37,689 bases of DNA from the NCBI RefSeq assembly GCF_005930475.1, contig NZ_SJEW01000048.1, positions 1-37,689 on the forward strand. The letters are read 5' to 3'. Every line of letters begins with the position of its first letter. The stretch's first letter is position 1. The translations under genes were made by a program, and so were the position numbers. Under the pieces are notes generated by a model. That model ran no database searches, was not told the origin of the DNA, and saw only the letters and a list, made by a program, of their open reading frames with translations. The stretch is from Modestobacter altitudinis. Lineage in GTDB: Bacteria; Actinomycetota; Actinomycetes; Mycobacteriales; Geodermatophilaceae. Positions 5,705 through 22,941 of this stretch are shown piece by piece.

Positions 5705-6658
5705 GTGGTGCAGGCGGTCCGCATCCGGGTGCCGGCGACCAGTGCCAACCTCGGGCCGGCCTTCGACTGCGCCGGGCTCGCGCTGTCCTGCTGGGACTCC
5801 GTCGACGTCGCGGTGACCGACGGCGGGCTGGACGTCACGGTCACCGGGGCCGGCGCCGGCGAGCTGCCCACCGACGAGCGGCACCTGGTCGTGCGGGCCT
5901 TCCGCGCGGCCAGTGCCGAGCTGGGCTGGACGCCGCCCGGCCTGCGGCTGTCGGCGCGGAACGGGATCCCGCAGGGGCGGGGGATGGGCTCGTCGGCCGC
6001 GGCGGTGACCGCCGGCGTGCTGGCGGCCTGGTCGCTGTGCCCGGACGTCGCGGGCGTGGACGACGCGGCGGTGCTGCGGCTGTGCTCGGAGATCGAGGGT
6101 CACCCCGACAACGTCGCGCCGTGTCTGCTGGGCGGGGCGACCCTGTCCTGGACGACGCCGTCAGGTGCGCGGGCCGAACGGCTCACCGTCGACCCCCGGG
6201 TGGCGCCGGTGCTGTTCGTGCCGAGCGGGACGTTGTCCACCCACGTCGCCCGCGGGCTGCTGCCCGACGCGGTGCCGCACGCCGACGCAGCGCATGCAGC
6301 GGGACGCTCGGCGCTGCTGGTGCACGCGCTGACTCGCGAGCCCGGGCTGCTGTTCGAGGGCACCGAGGACCGGCTGCACCAGGCGCAGCGGGCACCGGCG
6401 ATGCCCGAGAGCGCCGCGCTGCTGGCTGCCCTGCGGGCCGACGGTCACGCCGCCGTCGTCTCCGGGGCCGGGCCGTGCGTGCTCGCGCTGGCCGTCCTCG
6501 GCCACGACGAGCACGCCGGTGACCCGGGCTCCGCCGCCGAGGTCAGGGCGCTGCGGCGCAGCACGCCCGAGGGCTGGGAGTGCCGGGCGCTGCGGGTCGA
6601 CCACACCGGGGCGGTCGTCGCACCGCTGGCGTCCGATCACGATCCTGTATCGTTCTGA
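5705..6658 (+). CDS. thrB: Homoserine kinase
   Basis: GHMP-family kinase that phosphorylates homoserine to O-phosphohomoserine, the substrate of the thrC product just upstream. It is 317 aa. The N-terminal strand VRIRVPATSANLGPAFD is the typical GHMP opening. The ATP-binding loop is seen as PQGRGMGSSAAAV, then EGHPDNVAPCLLGG, and near the C-terminus the third GHMP motif VSGAGPCVLAL. GTG 5705 begins immediately after the thrC stop; a second GTG at 5708 is an alternative that changes one residue. There is no good Shine-Dalgarno, which fits coupling to thrC. The gene is followed by the rho promoter and leader region. Confidence 0.95.
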   Translation: MVQAVRIRVPATSANLGPAFDCAGLALSCWDSVDVAVTDGGLDVTVTGAGAGELPTDERHLVVRAFRAASAELGWTPPGLRLSARNGIPQGRGMGSSAAAVTAGVLAAWSLCPDVAGVDDAAVLRLCSEIEGHPDNVAPCLLGGATLSWTTPSGARAERLTVDPRVAPVLFVPSGTLSTHVARGLLPDAVPHADAAHAAGRSALLVHALTREPGLLFEGTEDRLHQAQRAPAMPESAALLAALRADGHAAVVSGAGPCVLALAVLGHDEHAGDPGSAAEVRALRRSTPEGWECRALRVDHTGAVVAPLASDHDPVSF

Positions 6659-6688
6659 CCGTCCGGAACACACCTGCGAGGGACTGTG

Positions 6689-6718
6689 TTGTGGACGACG
6701 TCGGCCTGTGTCTAGGCT
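6689..6718 (+). promoter_or_regulatory. Candidate rho promoter
   Basis: TTGTGG (6689-6694, compare TTGACA) and TAGGCT (6713-6718, compare TANNNT) are separated by 18 bases in the gap after thrB. This predicts a transcription start near 6725 and an untranslated leader of about 185 bases. Both boxes are seen directly; promoter activity is inferred. Confidence 0.5.
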
Positions 6719-6724
6719 GGCTTC

Positions 6725-6910
6725 CGTAGCCGCCTCCGGGCGAGCCTCACGCGGGGAGTCCGCCGCGATCCGTCGCCGCTGGCCTGCCCCGCATCCACAG
6801 ACCCGCCACTCCCGATCGCCGCGCCGAGTCCTCATCCGGGCTCTCGCCGTCCGGGAGCGGGTCACCTCCTGCGCTGGTAGGCGCAGGTCACCGCAGGGAA
6901 GGACCTGTAC
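6725..6910 (+). promoter_or_regulatory. Long C-rich 5' leader of rho, with hairpin near the start codon
   Basis: There is no gene in this stretch. The middle part (about 6780-6845) is rich in C and poor in G, the composition of Rho-utilisation (rut) sites. Close to the gene a perfect 7-bp hairpin has CCTGCGC at 6868-6874 and GCGCAGG at 6881-6887 with a 6-base loop. It is followed by the AGGGAAGGA Shine-Dalgarno (6895-6903), 7 bases before GTG 6911. Rho autoregulation by attenuation in its own leader is established in E. coli. Applying that here is inference. Confidence 0.4.
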
Positions 6911-7309
6911 GTGAGCGAGACCACCGACCTCATCGACGGCGCGACCACCGCCCCGTCCGACGAGGCAGCTGCCGCCGCCGGGACGGCACCCCGATCCCGC
7001 CGCCGTGGCAGCGGACTGTCCGGGATGCTGCTGCCCGAGCTGCAGCGCCTGGCCGGCGAACTCGGCATCCCGGGCACCGGGAAGATGCGCAAGAGCGACC
7101 TCGTCGCCGCCATCTCCGAGCGGCAGGTGGGCGGGTCCAACGGCTCTGCCGACGCCCCGGCCGCGCCGGCTCCCCGGACGGACGACGCCGCGTCGTCCGC
7201 GCCGCTGGAGGCCCCGGTCTCCGGTGGTGCCAACGGCACCCCGGTGACACCGCCGGCCACCACCGGTCCGGCCACCGACACCCCGGCCGCCGAGCCGGCG
7301 GCCTGCTAG
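6911..7309 (+). CDS. Rho N-terminal (Rho_N) domain, cut off by an in-frame TAG
   Basis: This 132-residue frame encodes the start of transcription termination factor Rho. Residues about 38-72 (LSGMLLPELQRLAGELGI to SDLVAAISERQ) form the SAP-like helical Rho_N domain that precedes the primary RNA-binding domain, and the rest is a Pro/Ala/Thr/Gly-rich linker. It begins at GTG 6911 with a strong Shine-Dalgarno 7 bases upstream. It stops at TAG 7307-7309. The next four codons are open and in the same frame, and GTG 7322 starts the remaining Rho frame, so only one codon (TAG) interrupts a 798-codon frame from 6911 to 9304. It is either the first half of a split rho gene, a nonsense mutation, a readthrough site or a sequencing error. 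The linker-like composition continues smoothly across the stop, which argues that the two parts were one gene. Confidence 0.75.
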   Translation: MSETTDLIDGATTAPSDEAAAAAGTAPRSRRRGSGLSGMLLPELQRLAGELGIPGTGKMRKSDLVAAISERQVGGSNGSADAPAAPAPRTDDAASSAPLEAPVSGGANGTPVTPPATTGPATDTPAAEPAAC

Positions 7310-7321
7310 CCGGCGGCCGCC

Positions 7322-9304
7322 GTGAGCCCCGCTGCCCCGGCCGGGGCCGCGCCGACCGGCCGTCGCCGCCGCGGCGCGAGCCGCCCCGCCGGCGCCCCCA
7401 CCGCCGACGCCGTGGTCGAGACCCCGAGCACCGACGCGTCCGCTGGTGCTGCTGAGCCGGCCGCCGAGACCCCGGCCGAGACCCCGGCCGAGACCCCGAC
7501 CCAGACGTCGGACCCGGCCGAGGGGCGGCCGGAGGGTGAGCGCCCGCAGCGCAGCCGGAACCGGGATCGCGCCGAGCGGGCGCCCCGCGAGACCGCCGAG
7601 CGTCCCGCCCGGGACGGCGCCGAGCGGGCGCCCCGCGAGACGGCCGAGCGTCCTGCACAGGACGCCGCCGAGCGGGCTCCCCGCGACGCTGCCGAGCGCG
7701 AGGAGCGCCCCCGCGACGGGAACCGGGCCGAGCGGGACGGCGAGGAGCGCAGCGGCCGCAACCGCGGCGACGGTGACTCCGCCGGGAACCGCGGCGGCCG
7801 CAACCGCAGCGACGGTGCCCGCGACGGCAACCGCAACGACGGTGTCCGCGATGGCAACCGCAGCGACGGTGCCCGCGATGGCAACCGCAGCGACGGTGCC
7901 CGCGATGGCAACCGCGGCGACGGTGTCCGCGACGGCAACCGCAACGACGGCAACCGCAGCGACGGTGCTCGCGACGGCAACCGCAACGACGCTGTCCGCA
8001 ACGAGCCCCGTCCCGACGCGCGCACCGACGAGGACGACGACGACTTCGAGGGTGGCGGCCGCGGTCGCCGGGGTCGCCGCTACCGGGACCGCAACCGCCG
8101 TGGCGGCAACGCCCCCGCCGGTCGCGAGCGCTTCGAGCAGGGCGAGCCGACCGTCAGCGAGGACGACGTCCTGCTGCCGGTGGCCGGGATCCTGGACGTG
8201 CTGGACAGCTACGCCTTCGTCCGCACGTCGGGGTACCTGACCGGCCCGAACGACGTCTACGTGTCGCTGTCCCAGGTGCGCCGGTACGGCCTGCGCCGCG
8301 GCGACGCCATCACCGGCGCCGTCCGCCAGCCCCGTGAGGGCGAGCGCAAGGACAAGTACAACGCCCTGGTCCGGCTGGACTCGGTCAACGGCCTCGACCC
8401 CGAGCAGGCCCGCAACCGGCCCGAGTTCACCAAGCTCACGCCGCTCTACCCGCAGGAGCGCCTGCGGCTGGAGACCGAGTCGCACCTGATGACAACCCGG
8501 ATCATGGACCTGGTCATGCCCATCGGGAAGGGTCAGCGGGCGCTGATCGTCAGCCCGCCCAAGGCGGGCAAGACGATGGTGCTGCAGTCGATCGCCAACG
8601 CGATCTCGACGAACAACCCCGAGGTCCACCTCATGGTCGTGCTCGTCGACGAGCGCCCCGAGGAGGTCACCGACATGCAGCGGTCGGTGAAGGGCGAGGT
8701 CATCGCCTCGACCTTCGACCGGCCGCCGGCCGACCACACCACGGTCGCCGAGCTGTCGATCGAGCGGGCCAAGCGCCTGGTCGAGATGGGCCACGACGTC
8801 GTCGTCCTGCTGGACTCGATCACCCGGCTGGGCCGCGCCTACAACCTGGCGGCCCCCGCCAGCGGGCGCATCCTCTCCGGTGGTGTCGACTCCACGGCGC
8901 TGTACCCGCCCAAGCGCTTCCTCGGCGCCGCCCGCAACATCGAGAACGGCGGCTCGCTGACGATCATCGCCTCGGCGCTGGTCGAGACCGGGTCGACGAT
9001 GGACACGGTCATCTTCGAGGAGTTCAAGGGCACCGGTAACGCGGAGCTCAAGCTGGACCGGCGGCTGGCCGACAAGCGGGTCTTCCCCGCCGTCGACGTG
9101 AACGCCTCCAGCACCCGCAAGGAGGAGATCCTCCTCTCACCCGACGAGCTGGCCATCGTGATCAAGCTCCGCCGGGTGCTGTCGGCGCTGGAGCCCCAGC
9201 AGGCGCTGGAGCTGCTGCTCGACCGGATGCGGAAGACCCGCAACAACATCGAGTTCCTCATGCAGGTGCAGAAGACGACGCTGGGCGTGGGCGACAAGGA
9301 GTGA
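7322..9304 (+). CDS. rho: Transcription termination factor Rho (RNA-binding and ATPase domains)
   Basis: Hexameric RNA helicase that ends transcription by tracking along C-rich nascent RNA. From GTG 7322 the product is 660 aa. Residues 1-270 are a low-complexity, highly charged region (Ala/Pro/Thr, then [12 protein letters not shown] and SDGARDGNR repeats), an Arg/Asp/Asn-rich insert known from actinobacterial Rho such as that of Micrococcus luteus. The OSP-like RNA-binding domain follows ([21 protein letters not shown], then [19 protein letters not shown]). The ATPase core has Walker A SPPKAGKT (K about 417), Walker [18 protein letters not shown] and [20 protein letters not shown] (Q/R-loop region), and ends near residue 660. 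All catalytic parts lie after the TAG at 7307, so this shorter form could work without Rho_N. No Shine-Dalgarno precedes GTG 7322, so translation would depend on re-initiation 12 bases after the upstream stop, or on readthrough. Confidence 0.93.
7571..7720 (+). repeat. 48-bp in-frame repeats in rho ([12 protein letters not shown] unit)
   Basis: About three imperfect copies of a 16-codon unit ([16 protein letters not shown]) run in tandem in the disordered N-terminal part of Rho. They alternate Arg and Glu/Asp. Length variation between strains by slippage would be expected. Confidence 0.7.
7808..8001 (+). repeat. 27-bp in-frame repeats in rho (SDGARDGNR unit)
   Basis: Seven to eight tandem copies of a 9-codon unit, SDGARDGNR with variants NDGVRDGNR and GDGVRDGNR and one short copy NDGNR. 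Some copies are nearly identical at the DNA level, which suggests recent slippage. The peptide is rich in Arg, Gly, Asn and Asp, as in RNA-binding disordered regions. Confidence 0.85.
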
Positions 9305-9432
9305 CCCGGCCGGTCGCGCCGGTCTCCCGTCTGGGAGACTGGTCGACCGAGCCTCCGCTGCCGGGTCACGCCCCAGCTCCCGGCGGCGTCCGAACCGAGC
9401 AGGTCCCGAGACCAGAGAGAGGGTGTACCGGC
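9305..9432 (+). promoter_or_regulatory. Structured leader between rho and rpmE
   Basis: This 128-base gap holds two hairpins. The first is perfect: GTCTCCC (9322-9328), a 4-base loop and GGGAGAC (9333-9339); it could end the rho transcript, though it has no T-run. The second pairs GCTGCCGGG (9357-9365) with CCCGGCGGC (9379-9387), with one G-T wobble. Ribosomal protein leader motifs upstream of rpmE (L31) are known in several bacterial groups including Actinobacteria, where L31 is thought to regulate its own synthesis. Whether this leader matches a known family needs a covariance search. Confidence 0.4.
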
Positions 9433-9663
9433 ATGAAGGCCGACATCCACCCGGACTACCACGTCACCACCGTGACGTGTGGTTGCGGCAACACGTTCAC
9501 CACCAAGAGCACGGCGCCCGGCGGCACGATGACCGTCGAGACCTGCTCGGCCTGCCACCCGTTCTACACGGGCAAGCAGCGCATCCTGGACACCGGTGGC
9601 CGCGTCGCCCGCTTCGAGAAGCGGTTCGGCAAGCGCAACGCCGGCGCTCCGGCCGACAAGTAG
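9433..9663 (+). CDS. rpmE: 50S ribosomal protein L31, zinc-binding type
   Basis: Ribosomal protein L31, which sits at the central protuberance of the large subunit and bridges to the small one. It is 76 aa from ATG 9433, with GAGAGGG upstream. Four ligands typical of the zinc-binding (C+) form are present: C16 and C18 (TCGCGNTF) and C38 and C41 (CSACHPF). The sequence [10 protein letters not shown] and the end [14 protein letters not shown] are diagnostic. An open frame extends upstream to 9301 but contains no L31-like sequence. The C+ form is usually the zinc-replete paralogue, and the zinc-independent copy, if any, is not in this window. The order rho-rpmE-prfA is common in actinobacteria. 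Confidence 0.95.
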
Positions 9664-15769: not shown

Positions 15770-16099
15770 ATGGCCGAGGACAGTCCCGCACATGGGGGCA
15801 CCCGACCGCGACCCGAGAAGCCAGACGCACGCCAGCCCAGTGGGGCTGATGTCGGCTGGGGGATCACCGGCACGATGCTGTCGGGGATCATCGTCTGGGG
15901 TGGCGCAGGGTTGGCGCTCGACCGCTGGCTGGGCACGCAGTTCATCGCCCTGATCGGCGTCCTCCTCGGCCTCGGTGTCGCGATCTACCTCATCATCGTG
16001 AAGTACGCCCCACCCGTGCCGCCGACCGGCACGGGAGCACGACGAACCCCCAGGGGTGGCCGACCGAGTCAACCCAGGACGCAGAAGGGACAACGGTGA
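15770..16099 (+). CDS. AtpZ/AtpI family protein
   Basis: A 109-aa protein with two membrane helices (about residues 30-50 and 58-78, GWGITGTMLSGIIVWGG then FIALIGVLLGLGVAIYLII) between hydrophilic ends. This is the small AtpZ/AtpI (ATPase_gene1) family encoded first in many atp operons and thought to help c-ring assembly or magnesium supply. GLALDRWLGT is the typical short loop between the helices. ATG 15770 is chosen over earlier in-frame codons because of the TAGGGT box upstream and because the earlier residues lie inside the previous gene. Its stop overlaps the GTG of atpB. Confidence 0.85.
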   Translation: MAEDSPAHGGTRPRPEKPDARQPSGADVGWGITGTMLSGIIVWGGAGLALDRWLGTQFIALIGVLLGLGVAIYLIIVKYAPPVPPTGTGARRTPRGGRPSQPRTQKGQR

Positions 16100-16923
16100 C
16101 CTCCAGCGCCCTCGCGCTCGTCAACGTCCTCGCCGCCGAGGGCGGCGATGGCAGCGGCTTCGAGTCGCCGACCATCGAGGAGTTCTACCCCGAGTCGCTC
16201 GTGTCGTTCTCGGTGTTCGGCATCGACTTCGAGTTCACCCGCATCACGTTCATCCTGATCATCGCGACAGCGCTGATCCTGGCTCTGCTGGTGGCCGCCA
16301 TGCGCCGGCCGGGGATCGTGCCGGGCAAGATGCAGTGGCTGGCCGAGAGCGGTTACTCGGTGGTCCGGGACGGCATCGCGCGGGACGTCATCGGCCCCAA
16401 GGGCCTGCCGTTCGCACCGTTCCTCGGGTCGCTCTTCTTCTTCATCCTCGCGAACAACGCGATGAGCATCGTGCCGTTCCTGCAGATCTCGCCGATGAGC
16501 CGGTTCGCGTTCCCGCTGGTGCTCGCCGTGTTCGTCTGGATCCTCTACAACTACGTCGGCATCCGTGAGCAGGGCGCCGGCCGGTACTTCAAGGACGCTG
16601 CCGTCCCGCCGGGCGTTCCCGCGGCGGCGCTGATCCTGGTGACCCCGATCGAGCTGCTGCAGGTGTTCATCATCCGGCCGTTCACGCTGGCCGTCCGGCT
16701 CTTCGCCAACATGTTCGCCGGCCACATGCTGCTCGTCGTCTTCTCCCTCGGTGCGGTCTACCTGATCCAGGTCGGCAACTTCTCGGCTGTCTTCGCCCCG
16801 CTCTCGCTGCTGATGGCGATCGTGATGACCTTCTTCGAGCTGCTGGTCATCGTGCTGCAGGCCTACGTCTTCACCGTGCTGACGGCCACCTACCTCAACG
16901 GTTCGGTCGAGCCCGCTCACTGA
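16096..16923 (+). CDS. atpB: ATP synthase subunit a
   Basis: Membrane stator subunit that forms the two proton half-channels against the c-ring. It is 275 aa with five to six membrane helices. The essential arginine is in RPFTLAVRLFANMFAGH, and the last helix carries ELLVIVLQAYVFTVLTATYL. GTG 16096 overlaps the stop of the preceding gene (GTGA), with AGAAGGGA upstream. The first 35 residues are a soluble segment ending PESLVSF that precedes the first membrane helix. It is followed by a 101-base gap holding a hairpin before atpE. Confidence 0.95.
   Translation: MTSSALALVNVLAAEGGDGSGFESPTIEEFYPESLVSFSVFGIDFEFTRITFILIIATALILALLVAAMRRPGIVPGKMQWLAESGYSVVRDGIARDVIGPKGLPFAPFLGSLFFFILANNAMSIVPFLQISPMSRFAFPLVLAVFVWILYNYVGIREQGAGRYFKDAAVPPGVPAAALILVTPIELLQVFIIRPFTLAVRLFANMFAGHMLLVVFSLGAVYLIQVGNFSAVFAPLSLLMAIVMTFFELLVIVLQAYVFTVLTATYLNGSVEPAH

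Positions 16924-21453: not shown

Positions 21454-22941
<1,488 letters not shown>

Follow-up and report, generated by a model that had tools for sequence, protein, structure and literature searches.

The rho gene of Modestobacter altitudinis, as it stands in the assembly, is interrupted by an in-frame amber codon that separates the Rho_N domain from the RNA-binding and ATPase domains. A recent mutation or an error of assembly is the most likely source of this stop, whereas programmed switching between two forms of Rho is improbable. We analyzed a stretch of 37,689 nucleotides (the window), which is contig C104 of a 5.18-Mb assembly in 161 contigs. Translation of the frame agreed exactly with what the initial annotation had read there: the TAG (7307-7309) shares its frame with the GTG start at 6911 and with the Rho core, the frame is identical on both sides of it and ends with TGA at 9302-9304, so there is no frameshift, and 6911-9304 amounts to 798 codons when both stops are counted. 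A second GTG, at 7322, lies 12 nt past the stop. The annotation had left four readings side by side. Two of them, sequencing error and strain-specific nonsense mutation, survive our analysis; the other two, readthrough and re-initiation, are without comparative support.

The division of the gene into a Rho_N piece and an RNA-binding/ATPase piece is borne out by Pfam. The upstream open reading frame (6911-7309, plus strand; from the ORF list, translation and Pfam) encodes 132 amino acids with Rho_N (PF07498) at residues 36-73. The downstream frame (7322-9304, plus strand; from the ORF list, Pfam and alignment) encodes 660 amino acids that comprise a disordered linker, Rho_RNA_bind (PF07497) at residues 287-361, and the ATPase domain (PF00006) at residues 393-597. 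By codon comparison with G002 and G008, the two nearest relatives, the Rho core occupies 8141-9301 of the plus strand. The RNA-binding and ATPase domains that define a Rho are thus both present in the 660-aa piece, which passes the general rho model TIGR00767 with 637.4 bits against a cut-off of 509.45. Rho_N, which usually sits at the N terminus of the same chain, is encoded in the separate 132-aa frame as the sequence stands. A chance juxtaposition of two genes is ruled out because the rho frame of relatives is normally uninterrupted. Nor did we find a second rho in the genome to compensate, the other two matches to the core being only 28% and 26% identical; the weaker one falls in the frame at 21496-22941, which we take to be atpD.

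Comparison with relatives indicates that the stop is not a shared feature of the gene. The core is present in 20 of 23 genus genomes, this one included, and is missing from three. A single open frame runs from the rho start to the core in all 18 of the other readable genus genomes, a count that takes in every other core-bearing genome (19 in total) except G011, in which rho is split between contigs, and that treats L039 and G006, apparently one genome, as one. The closest named Rho cores are likewise from Modestobacter (L039, 97%; L040, 94%). Across the family, the core was matched in 103 of 112 genomes and the rho leader described below in 95 of 112. The start and the core lie on a single contig in 83 of these genomes, and the frame is uninterrupted in 80 of the 83; the exceptions are the window genome, G069 with a frameshift, and G106 with N and garbled sequence. 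Twelve of the 103 core-bearing genomes have no leader match; the two that were read (G028 and G037) are uninterrupted, and the remaining ten, among them G096, which is cut by a contig end, stand outside the count of split genes. Beyond the family, we scanned the forward frames of 80 named-collection loci at E 0.001 with a Rho_N profile to which some of these loci had themselves contributed. Rho_N and the core share one frame in 67 of them, Rho_N is not detectable in 6, and 7 are cut by a contig end; a Rho_N match solely in another frame was seen in none of the 80. An order-wide search gave a rho match in 394 of 396 genomes. Among the matches listed, whose lengths were scanned by eye for frames of up to 610 aa, no recurrent split rho appeared besides the window genome and G069, and the other frames in this range all begin close to the end of a contig; the class of about 628 to 680 aa seen in other families lies above it. 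A literature search of partial coverage returned no published split rho.

The coding sequence on the far side of the stop does not look like that of a decaying gene. The Rho core (8141-9301) differs from that of G002 by 28 synonymous and no nonsynonymous changes and from that of G008 by 29 synonymous and 2 nonsynonymous changes. With G008 and G003 as outgroups, the window has ten private codon changes in the core, and all ten are synonymous. In the first 80 codons of rho, dN/dS is 0.59 against G002 and 0.39 against G008, values that rest on just five or six changes each, and the one change private to the window there is synonymous. Selection on the Rho core is strongly purifying, and there is no clear sign of rho decay. 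It follows that either the stop arose recently, or the core continues to be produced, or the stop does not exist in the strain.

The immediate surroundings of the stop are repetitive. The TAG lies between two copies of a 9-bp direct repeat, CCGGCGGCC, at 7295-7303 and 7310-7318 (both plus strand, from reading the sequence), and both copies belong to an array of period 15 that covers 7284-7322. Translation and alignment resolve the spacer between them (TGCTAG, 7304-7309, plus strand) into a cysteine codon and the stop. In alignments by eye, TGC TAG forms part of 15 nt, or five codons, that are missing from G002 and G008, and the five extra codons sit between a GAG CCG and a Ser-Pro-Ala-Ala segment common to all three sequences. 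Read by eye as well, three of the six positions in the spacer do not match a clean repeat unit. It also includes one of only three CTAG tetranucleotides in the 37.7-kb window (at 6712, 7306, and 23480). GATC occurs 204 times in the whole window, which suggests that CTAG is strongly avoided in it. A donor elsewhere for the inserted sequence was considered and rejected: the exact 14-mer GGCCTGCTAGCCGG is present once in the genome, and CTAG is found only those three times in the window. The linker as a whole has a G+C content of 0.80, and in the genus rows that were parsed its length varies by whole codons, from 274 to 361; in-frame insertion in this linker is therefore an ordinary event.

We consider a real mutation to be the likeliest origin of the stop, with about an even chance of being correct; an assembly or base-calling error is nearly as likely. 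If the base calls are correct, an insertion of about five codons, private to this lineage and carrying the TAG, would have entered the fast-evolving Pro/Ala linker in frame. Translation from GTG 6911 would then end at the TAG and yield a 132-aa Rho_N peptide, and the Rho core would probably be made at some level, perhaps weakly, by re-initiation at GTG 7322, so that the cell would have to manage mostly with a Rho that lacks the N-terminal helix bundle. What argues for a mutation is that the frame is open in the 18 other readable genus genomes, that the core is constrained, that no second rho was found, that rho is the sole clear mid-gene interruption in comparison with G003, and that in-frame insertions are ordinary in this linker. 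That Rho lacking Rho_N is natural and that rho is dispensable in Streptomyces lividans point the same way. The mutation is made less secure by a stretch that is hard to assemble and a species represented by one genome, by a Shine-Dalgarno match at GTG 7322 that falls within background, and by the requirement of Mycobacterium tuberculosis for Rho. In being confined to a single genome, as a private change that leaves the remaining protein intact and constrained, the interruption resembles strain-specific nonsense mutations and interrupted genes of draft assemblies alike. It is unlike a plain point nonsense change in that an in-frame length variant carries the stop, placed in the spacer that separates two direct repeats.

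If the error is local to the repetitive linker of 80% G+C, the rho of this strain would be ordinary and uninterrupted, and we hold this possibility to fall only a little short of even. It comes so close because breaks between the rho start and the core are found in eight other assemblies of the family: leader and core lie on different contigs in 8 of the 91 family genomes in which both were matched (G011, G051, G052, G055, G075, G082, G088, and G103), and in all seven of the eight that were read, the core contig begins inside the linker. The N and garbled sequence of G106 are in the linker as well. So is the frameshift of G069, a single-contig assembly, at about 2400-2460 of L192 (G069:C1:2266200-2270700), between Rho_N and the core and at nearly the same place as the stop in the window; it may be an error or real. 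Both flanks of the stop still look functional, and the combination of a TGCTAG that mismatches the repeat with a rare CTAG would fit faulty base calls no less than a complex mutation. Against an error, the contig is unbroken at the stop, the extra nucleotides make up complete codons, and the remainder of the assembly shows little of the kind. We compared about 300 kb (C84 and C106) and the rho region with G003. From that relative, 185 open reading frames, chosen by base composition and including some shadow frames, gave ortholog-like matches, and 11 were flagged. Ten of the flags lie outside rho and reflect near-end stops or frame changes or poorly conserved frames, except for one candidate at about 85.9-87.6 kb of C106 that may or may not be interrupted, which leaves rho as the only clear case. 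A flag is not specific, because the reverse comparison of the genome's own frames with G003 also flagged 9 of 175, five of which were inspected. Alignment of 15 other window frames to G002 and G008 showed no stop in the matched stretch of the relatives. Assembly quality thus looks good in general, with the rho linker as a weak spot. If the stop is real, the strain would be a natural test of an actinobacterial Rho whose helix bundle has been cut from its motor; if it is an artifact, it is a warning that assemblies often break in the G+C-rich, repetitive rho linker. Reads should therefore be consulted before any apparent truncation of rho in this family is accepted.

The geometry of the site also invites the idea that one mRNA gives two regulated forms of Rho, with and without Rho_N, by re-initiation or by regulated readthrough at the TAG, as the initial annotation had proposed. 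We regard this as highly improbable. GTG 7322 is close behind the stop and has GGCGG 5 nt upstream, Rho without Rho_N is a natural architecture, and NCBIfam holds a model for a short form of Rho to which the 660-aa piece aligns from the RNA-binding domain onward. The conservation that such a switch leads one to expect is not seen: the stop occurs in none of the 18 other readable genus genomes, and GTG 7322 is opposite GCG in G008 and GAG in G002, so the comparison with relatives proposed in the annotation went against two programmed forms. The predicted Shine-Dalgarno energy of GTG 7322 is -5.0 kcal/mol. The rho start reaches -6.8, and the background of the linker has a mean of -3.8 and a standard deviation of 2.0, so that GTG 7322 is a mediocre match inside that background; the sole other in-frame start in 7310-8141, at 7412, scores +0.4. 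A start shared within the linker was likewise rejected as a candidate. Each of the 16 genus relatives parsed has at least one in-frame start there at scattered positions, and an in-frame start in the linker is therefore nothing special (G006 and G009 were outside these 16, and the column alignment of linker starts covered G002 and G008). According to one study (PMC10666635), hardly any re-initiation is left in E. coli and Haloferax volcanii once the gap reaches about 20 nt, although gaps near +10 do occur in a few E. coli genes. By analogy, a 12-nt gap would be reachable by re-initiation but unfavorable.

Readthrough fares no better. No tRNA with a CUA anticodon, which would decode amber, is among the 47 tRNA matches in a genome estimated to be 99.49% complete, and we rejected readthrough by a suppressor tRNA; one tRNA-Leu does have the anticodon UAG, but this pairs with CUA rather than with the stop. 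A structured RNA around the stop was another rejected candidate, the fold of the region being unremarkable (z-score, -0.58). Rfam gave three matches in 6400-9500, all far under their gathering scores and none over the stop or the leader. The annotation had further speculated that the level of RF1 couples to the form of Rho through prfA, two genes downstream. Rho is indeed followed by L31, prfA, and prmC, and UAG is rare in the window, where 21 of the 22 listed frames end in TGA and one in TAG. The coupling loses force because the prfA neighborhood is the same in G002 and G008, where rho is free of stops and prfA follows it on the same contig with at least 97% identity. The RF1 of the window itself carries the PVT and GGQ motifs. 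We find this coupling scarcely credible, and beyond geometry there is little in favor of either it or the two-form idea. A different way for two forms to arise would be that the TAG between the 9-bp repeats is an unstable contingency element, with full-length and Rho_N-less Rho coexisting in the population, which we judge very unlikely. In that case a bundle-less Rho might choose its RNAs differently, and the frameshift of G069 would mean that Rho_N had been separated from the motor twice, independently, in the family.

Whichever origin the stop has, a Rho without Rho_N is plausibly functional. A truncated Rho could be viable because such proteins occur naturally in some Micrococcales: L081, L087, and L089 (Rhodoluna) and L097 and L099 (other Micrococcales) encode Rho without Rho_N and with a charged, low-complexity stretch at the start. 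For these five of the six Rho_N-less loci (L104 being the sixth), Pfam reported no Rho_N even at a threshold of E 1, and the profile scan detected none in any forward frame. Like the 660-aa piece, these proteins and the NCBIfam short form consist of a linker, an RNA-binding domain, and an ATPase domain. No Rho_N piece was detected in the Micrococcales loci, whereas the window retains one as a separate upstream frame, and the 660-aa piece stays below the cut-off of the short-form model (NF041509; 599.8 against 628 bits) and passes the general model instead. The Rho proteins of M. tuberculosis and Micrococcus luteus share with the window the order of Rho_N, a long Arg-, Asp-, Asn-, and Gly-rich insert, an RNA-binding domain, and an ATPase domain, according to passages of PMC4167861, PMC8828861, and PMC4499133. 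In contrast to such long-insert proteins, the frame of the window is broken between Rho_N and the core, a junction that is continuous in the 80 uninterrupted family genes noted above. The N-terminal insert of M. tuberculosis Rho is predicted to be disordered and raises RNA affinity, and its deletion halves the ATPase rate and improves unwinding, as described in parts of PMC8828861 and PMC4499133. The insert-deleted protein fails to complement E. coli rho, but so does the full-length protein (passages of PMC4167861). The same passages, together with those of PMC8828861, PMC4499133, and PMC5379054, describe no removal of the helix bundle alone. Rho is dispensable in S. lividans and required in M. 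tuberculosis (passages of PMC5379054), and a title cited in that paper calls it essential in Micrococcus luteus. Tolerance of the truncation can thus not be assumed, given the requirement in M. tuberculosis.

Two further features of the window deserve mention. The rho gene is preceded by a near-invariant leader (6868-6911) in which a hairpin with arms CCTGCGC/GCGCAGG is followed by a fixed segment with GGGAAGG. This 27-nt segment (6881-6907, plus strand; from pattern matching and genus comparison), with the Shine-Dalgarno-like GGGAAGG of the rho start, occurs once each in the 95 family genomes counted above and directly before the rho start in those that were read, and 6881-6910 is almost unvarying across the genus. 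Rfam has no match covering 6868-6911 at E 1 or better. The leader has the look of an element that controls the translation of rho. Elsewhere in the window, the dN/dS of atpB (16096-16920) is close to 0.6 whether G002 or G008 is the reference, compared with 0.06 to 0.27 for the 14 other non-rho frames, which suggests a patch that may have been replaced or is unusually diverged.
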